DNA of 64,000 bases from Bemisia tabaci. Its lineage: Eukaryota > Arthropoda > Insecta > Hemiptera > Aleyrodidae. The notes under the pieces are model-generated. The model searched no databases. It was not told the DNA's origin and saw only the letters and a list, made by a program, of their open reading frames with translations. Each line of letters begins with the position of its first letter. Within the stretch, counting starts at the first letter, position 1. The DNA lies in the NCBI RefSeq assembly GCF_918797505.1, contig NC_092793.1:91524411-91588410 (forward strand), in the 5' to 3' direction. The position numbers were made by a program, and so were the translations under genes. Below, piece by piece: positions 21,301 to 51,300 of this stretch.

Positions 21301-24300
21301 TACTCACTGCATCTTGAAAAATAACAGTGCATACAGCTGGATGTGGAAAATGCCTCGTTGTCCGCTGAACGTAGAGAGGAATCGTTTGAGACTTGTCAGA
21401 GAGAGAAAAAGGAACAACATCCTTTACTAGGTAAGTCCATAAAATAGTTCCAGTTAAATTGTCAATACCAAACAGCTGTAAAACATTTCCTTTTTTAAAT
21501 GAATGTCACACAGACTTAATTTTGCAAGGGAAAAAAATCAACAGGATATGTAAAAAGAACAAGTGTGATACTAAAAAACAATGGCTGTAAATGTAACATA
21601 AAGAAATGTAAAGGTTTATACTTGATCCCCAGGAAACGAAATATAAAATTCGAAAAATATAAAATACGAAATTCATAAAGAGTGTACATAGGCTGTCCCA
21701 AAAGTATCCAGACTGGTTCAGTAACTTCAAAACTACGATAGATACAGACATGATCTTGGTCTCATTTTAAAGATCAACTCAATACCTATCGATTAAGACC
21801 AAGGTCAGCACAATCGAATAAAAATTGACCGAGTTATGGCAATGTGAAATCAGTGAGTAAAGATTACCCCTATGGTTTTTAAGGAAAATTCTTCATCGAC
21901 GATATTGATACCTAAAAGTATGATCTGGTATTGTGTTTTCACCCTAAAACTTCCATGCAATGCTAGAACAACCTGGCAACATTGCCCCGTGGTGGTCGGC
22001 TGTCGCCAGTTGTCGTCGTCCGCCTTTGGGCCAAGAGTCCAAAAGGCAAAAATCCCCGACCGACCAGGCGCACCCCGAACCGGTGGAATGCTGCACTTGA
22101 GAGCTTTGTGGATGCTCCATCAAGACAACGCGCGGCCTCACAACTCGAACTTTACACGTGAATTTATGAGTAAAAATGAAGTTGAAACAATCCTTCATCC
22201 TCCTTATTGCCCTGACATGGCTCCTTGTGATTTTTGGATCTCTCCTTTGCTTAAAAAGGAGTTTTGTGGGCAAAGATTCGAATCTAGGACCGAAATCCAG
22301 AATGCGATTCAGAACTTTTTCAACTATGGAGTTTTTCAACTATGGTTTCAACCCCTGGGATGGCCCAGGGGAAGAATTCAGGAAAACAATGTTAGAGAAG
22401 TGGCAAGAGTGCATGATGTTTAATGGACGGTACTTCGAAAAACAAAAGGAAGTTATGGAAGATTCGGAGGAAAGCAGAAACGAAGATTAACTTTTTGAAT
22501 CCTGGTAAGCGAAAAATCTTCCTTAAAAACCGTAGGGGTAAACTTTACTCACTGATTTCAAATTGCTATAACTCGGTCAATTTTTATTCGATTGCGCTGA
22601 CCTTGGTCTTAATCGATAGGTATTGAGTTGATCTTTAAAATGAGACCAAGATCATGTCTGTATCTATCGTAGTTTTGAAGTTACAGAACCAGTCCGGGTA
22701 CTTTTGGGACAGCCTATGTATGTAGTTCACTATATGGGTCAAGGATAAAAGATAGCAACGGCATATAACGCGTCCCTACATACATACAGATACGCCGGTC
22801 CTACAGTGCACTCTGGCGCTCTGTGACACCCAAAAGCCACATGTACATATCTTCCCAAAGGTTATGGGACAACTGAAAACGAAACAACCCTTTGTCAACG
22901 CCCTTGCATCATCCTTTCATGGGATGTCCCTGTCGTCTCCTTCCAGAGGGTACCCGCCTACCCGATACAAAACTTGTTCGGACAACCTTTCCTCCCAGTC
23001 TTTGCACATGCCTATACGGCACTAACTGCCTGGACATGACTTCAAGCACGATAATACTTCTCAATTCCATTACCTGCCGAACTTTTTCATTACAGACACA
23101 GTCCCGGCTCGAGCTTCCGGCAGACCGCTGTTAAACCATTTCAGCTGCCCTCAACAAACCTTGTGTTCGCTTTGTTAGAGGCCTCATTTCACTACCATAC
23201 AGCACAGTATTTTCCACGATGGCATTATAAGTCAATGCTCGTTTGCCTTTCAAATGATTTGATCCCAAAGAAATCCGTTCAGAATCTTGATGGCTTTCCT
23301 CCCATGGATGATCATCCATGGAGGATCATTGATCCTGTATTTAATTGTCCAAATTCATCATTCCATCCTGAGCCAGCAAAACATCTGAAGAAAATGGCAG
23401 TCAGCCAGGCGCTGCATTTGGGGTTTGTGGATCTTCAAAAAGCTTATGACACTAGTGAAATTTAGGAATCATTGGAAAAGTGGTTTTAGCAAAAGACTTG
23501 TGGGGACAATTAGAGAATTTTTTGATGGAACGATGGCAAAGGTTAAATCATACAGGAAACTGTTTGGAGTTTCTTCATCACAAAAGAAGTAAAACAAGCA
23601 GCCTGCTGTTTGTTACCCACATCATTTCAGGTGTACATGGAGCACTTATTGATGGAATGCAAAAGGAAGAGTGCCGGGATGGGAGTTCAACTCTCTGCTA
23701 CAGACCCCTTACCCTATGTGCAAAAAATTGTAATTTTCAAAAAATTCTGAATTACACGTTTTCAAAGTAAAGTCTCAATAGACAAACACTATGCCATGCT
23801 ATTAGGCCCCACAATTACACTAAACGTCCGTATATGCACGCACTACTACATACTCCTTCACTATAGGAGACCAACACAGCATCTTACAAGCCAACTTTTA
23901 ACTATCAATTTTTACTTTTAAAGTTTGTCTTTTTCAAAGTATATGGGACGTTCTAAATGTAAATTCCATCGTTGTATTCCAAAAAAACTGTAAAAGATAA
24001 AATGAATGAGCTAAAATAATTGTGTCTGCCATACTTGCTGCATTCCAACAAACTAAAATAGTTAAAAATTGGACAACTGGTTCGCTGGCGAAGTCCGTTT
24101 AGCAGAACTAGCTTCCTTTCTGCACAAGTTCAAAACTGAAACTTGAACCTGCCCTCAGAACATTGTAATAACGAATAAAAATTGACCGGAGTATAAAAGA
24201 AACATCCTAGAGAGGTCACCTTACTTTTAATAGCAGTCTCTGCCTACGTCCACACACTTCTGATATCAATGATACAATTTTCTGATGTCGGCTGAAAATA

Positions 24301-45300: not shown

Positions 45301-48300
45301 AATGGCTCAAATCTAAGGAAACGCGGATTTCTATCGAATTTTATCGATGGTATGTGGCAACGTCGCGCCGCGGTGAGAGGCTGTATAGATAAACACATGT
45401 ACATAATCACTAGTAATCTGGTCATAACGTATGAAAATTCAAGGTTTGCTGAAATTTGCTCAATGAGCTCGGTGAGGAACAGCCTCCAAATACTGAAATA
45501 GGTACTCGGTTTTTTGTGTTTTCCGGGGATAAAATATGGCAACATTGGCTTTTTTGGGAGGCTTTGAATCCAAAAACTGTTTTAGAGGAAGTATTTGACC
45601 ACCTACGTATATTGTTCGCCAAAGGAGTTCAATTTTGGTGCAAGATGAGTCGCCCTTTTTAAACCATTTTAAAAAATGATGAAAAACAGGAAAATTATAT
45701 TAACAAAACAAAAAAAAAAACAAAAAGCAAAAAACATTTTAAACAATGAGCTCAATGTTTAAAAGCAACAAAAATTGGCTAAAGTGACCCTCTTACACCT
45801 CTAATGAACATACTTGAAGGACTTTTTACTCCTACAATGGGATCATTGTGAAACAGCGCGTCAAATGCCGCGACATTTAAGTCGAGCGACGGTCGAGCAG
45901 CGGTTTGACTACAAAATGCTAAAATCGCTGATTTTTGCATTTTGAGAGCTAAGAACGAGGGATTCTGATCCTCGTGGGTCCAAACCGTTATTTTTCTCTT
46001 AAAATATAGTATCAGAAGTCTCATTATCCGCATTTGCGACTTTTTACCTCGATTGCATTTACCGAAAAAAAATCTGCAAGATCGCCAAGATTGCCAAGAT
46101 GAGAAATCGGTGAAACATCTTAAGTACCTTGCGGGACCACTCAAACTTTAGCTACGACCCTGAGATTTTTTTGTGCTTTTTTTTCTAACTATGAGACAAC
46201 TTTTTGGCAGGTACCTCTGTTGGATTTCGCAATTTTTTTTTTTTGTAACGTCCAAAATGGGACACCCTACTGTTCAAACGCGTTCAATGCCTGGGCGGCA
46301 GCCATTATGGCCGCCATTTTGGCTTTTGGAGAACTTCTATCAGCTTATTTTGTTATTTGGACCTCATTTTTGGAATCTACGACCCAAAAAACCTATACAG
46401 TGACACCTCATTCGACAATATTTGCCTCAACAAAATATTTCACCCCGCAACGGCAGCCCTTTTGATTTTTTTGGGCTTCAATGGATCCGTGGTAAGTTTT
46501 TGACATCATAGGTGAAATCTCCGACCCAAAGAACCCTACCAAGGACACCCTACTTGGCACTTTTACATACGTATCGCAGTTTTGACCCTATCTTGGAGAT
46601 TTTGGCGGCCATCTTGGATTTGGGGCATCCCTTTGGGTCGGAGAGTATTTTGGACCTCAAATTCGGATTCTACGACCAAAATTACATAAAAGTTGACCCC
46701 AATCATGACATCAAAATCAAATTCCATAATTTTCACCCCCCCCGAGCCCCCATTTTGGCCGCCACACAGTGCAGTGTCCAATGGAAATAAGTCAAATTTT
46801 CAAACATATAAAATGGAAAAAGTGATGAGATATATGAAAAGAGGGGGGATTGGTGGTATCATTTTCAATGTTTGTTTACTGATTTGCATCAAATTGGCGT
46901 AAGGGGAGGTGATGAGATAAGCTCCGCGCGCGGTGACACCGGTCGCCGATGACGCGCTAGTGTTGTGATAGCAGTGATAAAGGCTGATTGACACCGTCCC
47001 AAATGTCCGGTTGGTGCTAATAATGGCTACACACACTCCCGGTAAGTTATTTAATTTAGATTATATCATAAAAATTATTTTTTCAACTTCTAAACATTAC
47101 TTTTCAGCACGTTTTTCGATGGTACTCTAATTTTACATTCTTCCCTCTTACTTAAACTTTAAAGACGTTTTTAAGAAAAACCAAAAATAACCAATTTTCC
47201 TGACAAGTGGTAATGATTGCAAATTTCCTGTAGATTCTGAATTTTTAGGTCCCATCTGCGTCTGGCTGCGAATAATAAAGTTATATCGTTTTTTCTGTCT
47301 CAAGGTCTGCCTCTGAATAACTCTGCTCTATTTGACTTATATACGCAAACATCGAAGGAGGAGCGAGTTGCAGCGATTGAAGGGAAACTTCGAGCCTATT
47401 TCGTTAACCAACATGTCTCAGATGAAAACTGGGCAAAATTTGCCAAAACGAAGTGCCTACATTTTGATACGTTGTGGAAAAAACATTCTAGAAGCAAATG
47501 TAGGGTAAGAAAATACGAAGATCGTTTTTTATCAACAGCGATTTCGTTGCCGGACTACTGTCTTCCGCAGACTCCCCATTCTCAAAAATCAGGTATTGGA
47601 GCGCCTCAAAAAAATTTTTCAGACTGCTGTTACAAAACAAAAAAACTTAAAGTTGAGCCCCTCTTGGCTTATACCTCGGAGGAGTTGAATTTTGCTGCAA
47701 AAATTAAGTCACCCGAGGCTCCGGTTAATACCCGAAGGATGTCAATGTACGAAACTCTTGCTTTAACACTAGACCTAGACTTGTCGGAGCGAAAGTATGA
47801 TGTGTTAAAAAATTATGTAAATAGAGTACATGCGGGTTTGATGCCCACCCTCTACAGTTTGAATAATTTTAAAAAACAGTTCTACCCTAAAATTATGTAT
47901 GCATCGGACACTCAAGTCCAAGTAGACGCACAGGACATGTTAAATAAAACAATAAATAGTCTCTTCCTGATGTTAGAGGAGGAAATTTTGAAAAATTATT
48001 GTTCTTCTAGTGAATTTGTCGTTGTATTTAAATGGGGCATGGATGGTAGCTCTGGACATAGTACATATAAACTCCCATTTAGAGATGAAAGTAACATTGA
48101 TCAAGAAACAGTCCAAAACACTGATCAAGAATCAGATCATGAGACTGACTCAGAAACTGACCAAGAAACTGGTCAGAACACTGAAAAAGATCCTATCTCA
48201 CAAACAGATGAATTTTTATTTTTTATAGCGTTCCTCCCAATATTTGTCAAAGAAAAACAATCCGGTTCAATAGTTTGGCGAAATCCGCGACCATCCTCGC

Positions 48301-51300
48301 CCCACTATTGCAGACCATTAAAATTTATGTTCTGCAAGGAAAATAAAGACATCACCCTGCAGGAATATAAAAGATTTGATGATTTGTTTAAAAATGCTAT
48401 TGAGAAATGTGATGTAAACATAAATAATAAGTTTGTAAATGTGGAATCCGAGTTCCACTTTACGATGATTGACGGCAAAGTATGTGACATCGTAAGTGGA
48501 ACAAACTCTTGTTCGGTATGCGTTATTTGTAAGGCCAAACCTACCGCGATGAATAGTTTAGATGTGGAGAAATTTATTCCTAATAAAGAAAACTACAAAT
48601 ACGGTTTATCTACACTTCATTGTTGGATCCGTTTTTTAGAATGCTGCCTGAAAATAGCCTTTCGATTACAAGTAGAAGAATGGAAAGAGACCGAGCAATA
48701 CAAGGCATTGAAAAAAACTAAAACGAAAGAGGACAAACGAGAAATTCAAATTATAGGGAAAAAATTAAAGGCTGATACTAAAAAACGAATCCAGCAAGAA
48801 ATGAAGGTTTCATTAGGGCTAAATATATCAAAGCCGAAACAAGGTTTTGGGTCATCGAACGACGGCAACACAGCCCGGACTTTTTTTCAAAAACATGAAA
48901 TAACTTCGAATATCACAGGTCTTGACCATCAATTGCTTGTGAATTTTCATGTGATACTGAGACTTTTGAATTGTAAGGAGGATCTCAATCTCGAAAAATT
49001 TGACGAACTGACTAAAGAGACCTTATCTTTATACATGGCAAAATATCAGTGGTATAAACTTCCTCAAACCGTGCATAAAATTTTGATTCACGGTTCGGAG
49101 GTAATGCGTAATTTTGATTTTCCAGTCGCTTTTTTAGCCGAGGACGCCTTGGAGGCCACTCACAAAGACATCAGAAGTGAGCGTGATGGTCGTACTCGAA
49201 AAAGGAGCCGCGTAGAATCGAACATCGATTTAATGAATCGTCTGGCCCTAAAATCCGATCCTCATGTAACCAGTTTCCGATGTAGCGCATTAAAAAAAAA
49301 AAAAAAATAAGAACTCTCGTGATGATCTAACAAAATATTTACTTGTCCCGGAGGAAACCAATGTCTTGGAGGAAATTGTGACAATTTACGATAATGAAAT
49401 CAGTTCCTAAAGTCAATTTTTTGTTTTCGATAAGATTTTATTTTCACCATTTACTATGTTTCATTTTTTCTGACCGAAGCTAGTCATTTCTTTTGTTTCC
49501 TTATATTGTTTGTAATTTGTTGTGTTTTTATGGGTTTTTTTGTTTTTTTCCTTCTTTTCTCTTCTTGTCCCTTGTGAGGTTTGATTTTGTTGTTAATTTT
49601 CTGTGATATTTTACTGTGATGAATTTTTATTTTTTGAAGTGCCTTTTTCTTTTTATTAAATATTTCTAATATGATCAAATCAAATTTTTCATCCATTTTC
49701 TCATGCTGATCCTCGGAAACCTCATTATTTCATTTTGTATATTTGAATTTCTCAGTGGTATTGACGCAGCATTGAAATCCGGAATTAAAGAGAGGATAAA
49801 CCTCAGCCTTGTTAGGCCCAGGGTTAAAAAATAAAATATGCATAGTTAATATCTGTAAGTGTACAGTCGATTTTTGGAGCGAGCTTGCGTGAATCTATAC
49901 ATTTTAATCGTTGAATTATAGCTAAAAAAGCTGATTTTTCCAGGCGCTTTGGCAACACAGCATTTTAATGGAGGGGTCATGAGAGGGCCAGATACCCTCG
50001 TAAGCCTTATACGTTATGATTTCAGGTTGGTTTTTCCTCTTTTTTCCACAAAAATAATGCATTCAAGTCATTACACTAAGTGGGAAAATAACGACACATT
50101 TGGCAAAATTTGGCAACACTGTGTTCTATCATTTGGGGAAGTTTGGAGAACTTTGACTTCAACACAAGCAAGTACATGATAAATACTTAATACTGTCAAA
50201 TTTTCATTGAATTCTATGCATTATTCGATCAGATATGAATTATTTCCTATCCGCCCATAAGGTCACTGCACTGTGCGCCATCTTGATTTTGGGGCGTTAG
50301 ACGCAAAATTGAGCTTGACAACATCGAAATTCTTTTTTTACGCATCGAAATGAAGAGATTAAGATATTTTCCACACTTGCTTCACTTACCGTTCCACGGG
50401 AAGCTTTTTTTGAACATAAGAACCCGGACTAACAGGCATTCTTGGAGGCTCTAGATTTCGAAATAAGCGTTTGCCCTAAAAATGGCGGATGTCAGCGACT
50501 GCCATTGTTACGTATATGTCCTCATGGATGAAAAAATAAATATATCGATGATGATGAGCTCAATAGTTAACGCCCATGTAAATTACATGGATGTTATTGA
50601 TTTTACCACATCATGATTGTAGCCATACACTGATTTACACAAAAACGATTACAATAAAAAACAAGAAGAAAAATTCGACAGGAATATGTTGGAAAAGCGT
50701 GCTGAATAACTGAAATGATGGACACATACCTACTATTTTCACGTCTTTGCTATTTGTATTAATTGGTACTTTTTGCTGAATTTGGGAGAAAATATTGATT
50801 CATGAACGTTTATTGTAAATTAATTTTAAAGATTCCGTCCAATTATCTTGATTTTAAGCTAATATGCGGCATTTACGCACGACCGCGATTTGGGCGAACT
50901 GCGGTGCATCGAAATCGCGTTGAGTTAATCTCTTTGGATTTCGAACTGTAACTTCTCTCCTATTCGGCCGATTTTTACAAATGAAGTTTCTTCTTATTTG
51001 TATTTTAACGGAGAGTAAGGAAATACTCGCTAAATGGATGGAAAACAATACAAAAATTGGTGGATCCTGGCGTCACAGTGTATGGTTAATTGGGCGTGAA
51101 AGATAAGGTTCGACGGCGAGGCGAGGGTCGCCGTCTTTTATTACCTCGCTCCAAACCAGACACCTAAAGCGATATCAGGAGATAATTGCAGTGGTTTAAG
51201 TGGATTCCTACGGGGGCCTTGGTTAGTACATGGTATATTGAGTCACGAGGCTGATGAGCCTCGTGCACTTACAGCGCAAGACGCTCATTGGCTAAAAAGT

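Follow-up and report, generated by a model that had tools for sequence, protein, structure and literature searches.

Transib transposons, cut-and-paste elements related to the recombinase that assembles antibody genes, and their RAG-like relatives have ends described as symmetric in some lineages and as bipartite and asymmetric in others. Most Transib families are reported to be symmetric (PMC8289069), Subgroup I Transibs to be asymmetric throughout and Subgroup II to contain both kinds (PMC9435367), and ends of 12/23 ±1 are listed for Transib5 of D. melanogaster and for Transib2 and N1-N3 of A. gambiae (PMC8355894, Fig. 2 legend). ProtoRAG and the pelagophyte RAG-like element AanRAGL have bipartite asymmetric ends as well, with spacers of 27/31 in ProtoRAG, where unequal pairs outperform equal ones (PMC8289069), and of 4/13 in AanRAGL (PMC9435367). 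Here, we describe a 3,511-bp Transib element in a 64,000-nucleotide stretch of the Bemisia tabaci genome (NC_092793.1, positions 91,524,411 to 91,588,410; "the window" below) that carries the same signal elements at both ends with spacers differing by 10 nt. An initial annotation of this DNA took Transib ends to be generally alike, which stands for most families (PMC8289069) and fails for the asymmetric Transibs already known (PMC8355894, PMC9435367). Because such ends are in print, the asymmetry described here is not of a new kind; the element is a clean new example of a Transib with asymmetric ends, built from the same elements at different spacing. Literature on Transib ends in general, as distinct from genome surveys, which were not covered, yielded no mention of it.

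Structure of the element and its two ends

The element and its ends comprise the following features, in window coordinates:

46765-50275: Transib DNA transposon, 3,511 bp, flanked by perfect 5-bp target site duplications (TSDs) CGCCA
46760..46764, no strand: left TSD CGCCA, read from sequence
46765..46776, + strand: left 12-bp terminal repeat CACAGTGCAGTG, with heptamer CACAGTG at 46765-46771
46772..46782, + strand: left spacer, 11 nt from heptamer to 11-mer block
46783..46793, + strand: left second block GGAAATAAGTC, with A-rich core AAATAAGTC at 46785-46793 (spacer 13)
50237..50247, - strand: right second block GGAAATAATTC, with A-rich core AAATAATTC (spacer 23)
50248..50268, - strand: right spacer, 21 nt from 11-mer block to heptamer
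50264..50275, - strand: right 12-bp terminal repeat CACAGTGCAGTG, with heptamer at 50269-50275
50276..50280, no strand: right TSD CGCCA, read from sequence

A 5-bp TSD, often GC-rich, and a CAC heptamer at both termini are Transib traits, and the presence of CGCCA on both sides led us to reject wrongly placed ends or a missing TSD. The repeat common to the two termini extends over 12 bp rather than 7, and CACAGTGCAGTG has exactly two exact matches in the window, one per element end. From the left, the order is TSD, CACAGTGCAGTG, TCCAAT and GGAAATAAGTC; reading inward from the right, it is TSD, CACAGTGCAGTG, ACCTTATGGGCGGATA and GGAAATAATTC. The block has the form GGAAATAA(G/T)TC at both ends, and its left and right versions are identical at 10 of 11 positions, 11 nt from the heptamer on the left and 21 nt on the right, as the initial annotation had described. 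The same ends can be read as 13/23 if spacers are measured to the A-rich core AAATAA(G/T)TC, a register that is our choice. By eye, one gap of 10 nt is enough to align the two ends over some 29 nt, suggesting that the asymmetry may come from a single insertion or deletion in ends that were once alike.

Compared by description, the 12/23-type Transibs share the CAC heptamer and A-rich second block with this element, and, with the A-rich core counted as nonamer, its spacers come to within 1 nt of 12 and 23; the B. tabaci element differs in having five more identical bases after the heptamer and one 10-nt gap between its ends. The list of those families reportedly derives from Kapitonov and Jurka 2005, going by the context in which the listing paper gives its reference 8. 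Vertebrate RAG1/2 and its 12/23 recombination signal sequences resemble the element in the RAG1 fold, in an A-rich second block and in two spacers about one turn apart, and the vertebrate consensus heptamer is CACAGTG, as here (PMC8289069); the block is like the vertebrate nonamer ACAAAAACC at just 5 of 9 positions (by eye). ProtoRAG and AanRAGL, unlike this element, encode a RAG1L-RAG2L gene pair and use other blocks and spacings.

Conservation across related insertions

A DNA-level search of the same genome, which comprises 610 Mb in 151 contigs, returned 51 matches, with 40 of 89 candidates scored. We fetched 37 loci and, after merging duplicates by position, obtained 32 distinct insertions, which are a subset of the genome's copies. 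For the census of ends, we set aside BLAST rows that began past position 30 of the end query, among them L032 and L034 at the right end and L033 and L035 at the left, and allowed the block up to two substitutions. The block is present in 29 of 30 left and all 28 right ends of the family. On the left, the spacer is 11 in 28 of the 30 end regions and 10 in one (L027), with the block missing from the other (L012); on the right, it is 21 in 28/28. Among the 25 insertions with both ends, the spacers differ by 10 in 24 and by 11 in one, and are equal in none. The 10-nt difference is thus conserved across copies in this genome, and the outcomes that the initial annotation had set against its own idea (equal spacing, a private deletion or an unconserved block) do not occur among these 25 insertions. 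A deletion private to one copy was rejected on the spacer counts of both ends. The heptamer CACAGTG itself is found in 22/30 left and 24/28 right ends.

Perfect 5-bp TSDs flank 19 of the 25 two-ended insertions and comprise 17 different sequences, which identifies these copies as separate insertions. Each of them implies a mobile donor, and 18 of the 19 now have 11/21 ends; this supports a functional unequal pair, and is no proof that an equal pair would fail. Copies with 11/21 ends have therefore inserted many times. Many related copies are about 2.2 kb long, with similarity confined to the element's first ~560 and last ~760 bases; since the coding middle is not matched, many copies look non-autonomous.

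For the analysis of divergence we used 24 left and 27 right ends, excluding L002, L029, L030, L035, L036 and L037 as divergent or duplicate. The copies differ from their own consensus by a mean of 1.6% on the left and 2.1% on the right, pointing to a recent burst of copying. Between the family consensus and the window element, 40-base bins contain a mean of about 3 differences on the left and 5 on the right, and the terminal 40 bases contain 1 and 2, respectively, which we consider weak evidence for constraint. Both right-end differences in the terminal 40 lie in the spacer and the left one lies past the block, leaving heptamers and blocks untouched. The divergent copies L002 and L030, whose left ends are 80% and 77% identical, retain both block and spacing.

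As a separate observation, L002 (G000:C3:54735568-54740404) appears by eye to combine the left half of this family with the 3' half of another Transib transposase. This copy therefore looks chimeric, and the genome seems to contain a second Transib family.

The encoded transposase

The coding region of the element can be laid out as follows:

47023..47041, + strand: putative first coding exon (ATG...), followed by a GTAAGT donor; read by eye, in a frame that agrees with the main open frame
47042-47304, + strand: putative intron, read by eye from sequence
47305..49310, + strand: Transib transposase main exon, within the open frame 47241-49310

The probable catalytic triad is D246/D389/E616 (numbered on the translation of 47307-49307), three acidic positions that are conserved in 64 of 64 aligned proteins and that alignment matches to D600/D708/E962 of RAG1 (residue numbers from PMC6941560). 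In a fold comparison, the predicted protein resembles HzTransib and RAG1 in rows that mostly span residues 142-662; nothing clear emerged for the N-terminal 141 residues. As modeled, the protein is a DDE transposase of the RAG1-core-like type, as in the Transib superfamily. A Pfam search with the transposase frame gave no match, and relatives sought in phage records, and at close range in viral contigs, were not found, as expected. Hztransib of Helicoverpa zea (6pqn, 6pqr, 6pqu, 6pqx, 6pqy, 6pr5) has the same fold, with 35% identity over 457 aligned residues, and also makes a 5-bp TSD (PMC1852546); its ends, unlike those of the B. tabaci element, are symmetric and show little similarity to the nonamer (PMC8289069). 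Its solved chain of 497 residues starts after the position of a segment in our main exon, GAPQK...KTKKLKV, that resembles the RAG1 nonamer-binding domain (NBD). The RAG1 domain is marked by an AT-hook motif of GGRPR type and by helices; a RAG1 NBD profile aligns to this segment weakly and colinearly, with a best independent E-value (i-E) of 0.046.

At the end of the frame, a run of 16 A (window 49292-49307) is followed directly by a stop, and the transposase C-terminus may be disrupted by this run, or the run length may be misread. The CTT1 tail motif (Cx2Cx3GHx4C; PMC7204232), which marks Subgroup I Transibs (PMC9435367), occurs in none of the 64 proteins of the alignment, and in the window copy the A run may have truncated the C-terminus. 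Transibs have one transposase gene and lack a RAG2-like gene; this element has only one long open frame, and we saw no RAG2 in it, in an analysis that included no search aimed at a RAG2-like gene in short, spliced or decayed form.

Readings of the asymmetric ends

We propose that the ends of this Transib cut-and-paste transposon act as bipartite signals, with the second block set deeper on the right than on the left by one turn of DNA, and we give this reading about an even chance of being correct. The end signal would combine the cleavage heptamer, within the 12-bp terminal repeat, with the A-rich second block. If the mechanism resembles that of RAG and HzTransib, the catalytic core would nick at CACAGTG, hairpin the flanks and insert with a 5-bp stagger, which the 5-bp TSDs fit. 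The A-rich block would probably be a second contact, gripped by the N-terminal NBD-like segment, and the 10-bp step would keep the two blocks on one side of the helix, allowing a single dimer to bind the short end together with the long one. Spacers of 13 and 23, read with the core AAATAA(G/T)TC as nonamer, differ by about one helical turn, so that at either end the protein would meet the block in the same orientation. An analogy to 12/23 signals (13/23 if measured from the A-rich core) is reasonable, and an unequal pair may be required or may just be tolerated; a pairing rule, and with it the precursor role or convergence raised by the initial annotation, would go beyond what these data can tell. 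A stronger proposal, that a RAG2-free Transib transposase requires a short and a long end (13/23) and thereby imposes a 12/23-like rule through a one-protein dimer with a non-canonical (GAP) nonamer-binding segment, strikes us as rather unlikely. If true, a 12/23-like rule would be older than RAG2 and the immune system or would have arisen in parallel with them. With its 13/23-like bipartite ends, numerous insertions and a transposase that is close to complete, the family offers a convenient way to ask whether one RAG1-like protein is enough to enforce the pairing of unequal ends when RAG2 is absent, and the answer bears on when the 12/23 rule arose.

Several observations weigh against the bipartite-signal reading. 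Taken by itself, the NBD stretch falls short of significance (i-E of 0.046, 0.086, 0.13 and 0.18 in four RAG1 alignments), and the rows of the fold comparison leave it uncovered. Window positions 47598-47612 read GAP, also seen in L002, rather than the GRP found in 56 of 64 proteins. The arginine of the GRP motif is a nonamer contact in RAG1 and is replaced in the window protein, which makes reading of the second block by the NBD-like segment uncertain. Six of the 25 insertions lack a perfect TSD, including L014 and L015 despite intact ends, and L027 (G000:C2:33292953-33296718) has 10/21 spacers, a CATAGTG heptamer and a perfect TSD, so that the spacing may tolerate a one-base change, unless the deletion postdates insertion. 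The family is recent and much of its conservation is shared ancestry. Finally, the terminal bins are not unique in how well they are kept: on the left, 1 difference is likewise counted in three more of the 14 bins, and on the right (19 bins) the adjacent bin also has 2 and one inner bin 1.

Much of this is compatible with a frozen accident, in which the transposase reads mainly the terminal 12-15 bp and a 10-nt step without any pairing function was spread by one recent amplification. Since conservation at the ends exceeds that of other stretches by a small margin only, we weighed bipartite recognition lower and this alternative higher, and we regard it as a serious contender whose probability falls somewhat short of even. 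Common descent alone could account for the identity of copies ~2% from their consensus, and the GAP motif points the same way. Invertebrate RAG-like transposases have been proposed to depend on the terminal ~15-17 bp (PMC7204232), and the N-terminal segment is lacking from the solved HzTransib protein, in an element with symmetric, nonamer-poor ends (PMC8289069). Against it, block and spacing persist in L002 and L030, and ends that are both bipartite and asymmetric are on record for several lineages of Transib and RAG-like elements. Simple coincidence between 11-mers in AT-rich sequence seems to us very improbable. A 10/11 match arises anywhere in a comparable search space in 16 of 1500 simulated Markov pairs and in 14 of 1500 pairs drawn at random from the window (~1%); the match in a single copy is thus no more than suggestive, being moderately unusual and for a motif picked afterwards, and its recurrence across the family is the stronger support. 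Among shifts of -15 to +15, the best inner match of the ends sits at exactly +10 (18/33 identical; runner-up 14/33). The block is kept at nearly every family end, yet a coincidence in the common ancestor is compatible with such identity.

Elsewhere in the window, an open frame at 21857-22423 (+ strand) contains HQDNARPH ... PPYCPDMAPCDFW. By eye, we take this to be a mariner/Tc1-type transposase signature, probably in a fragment.
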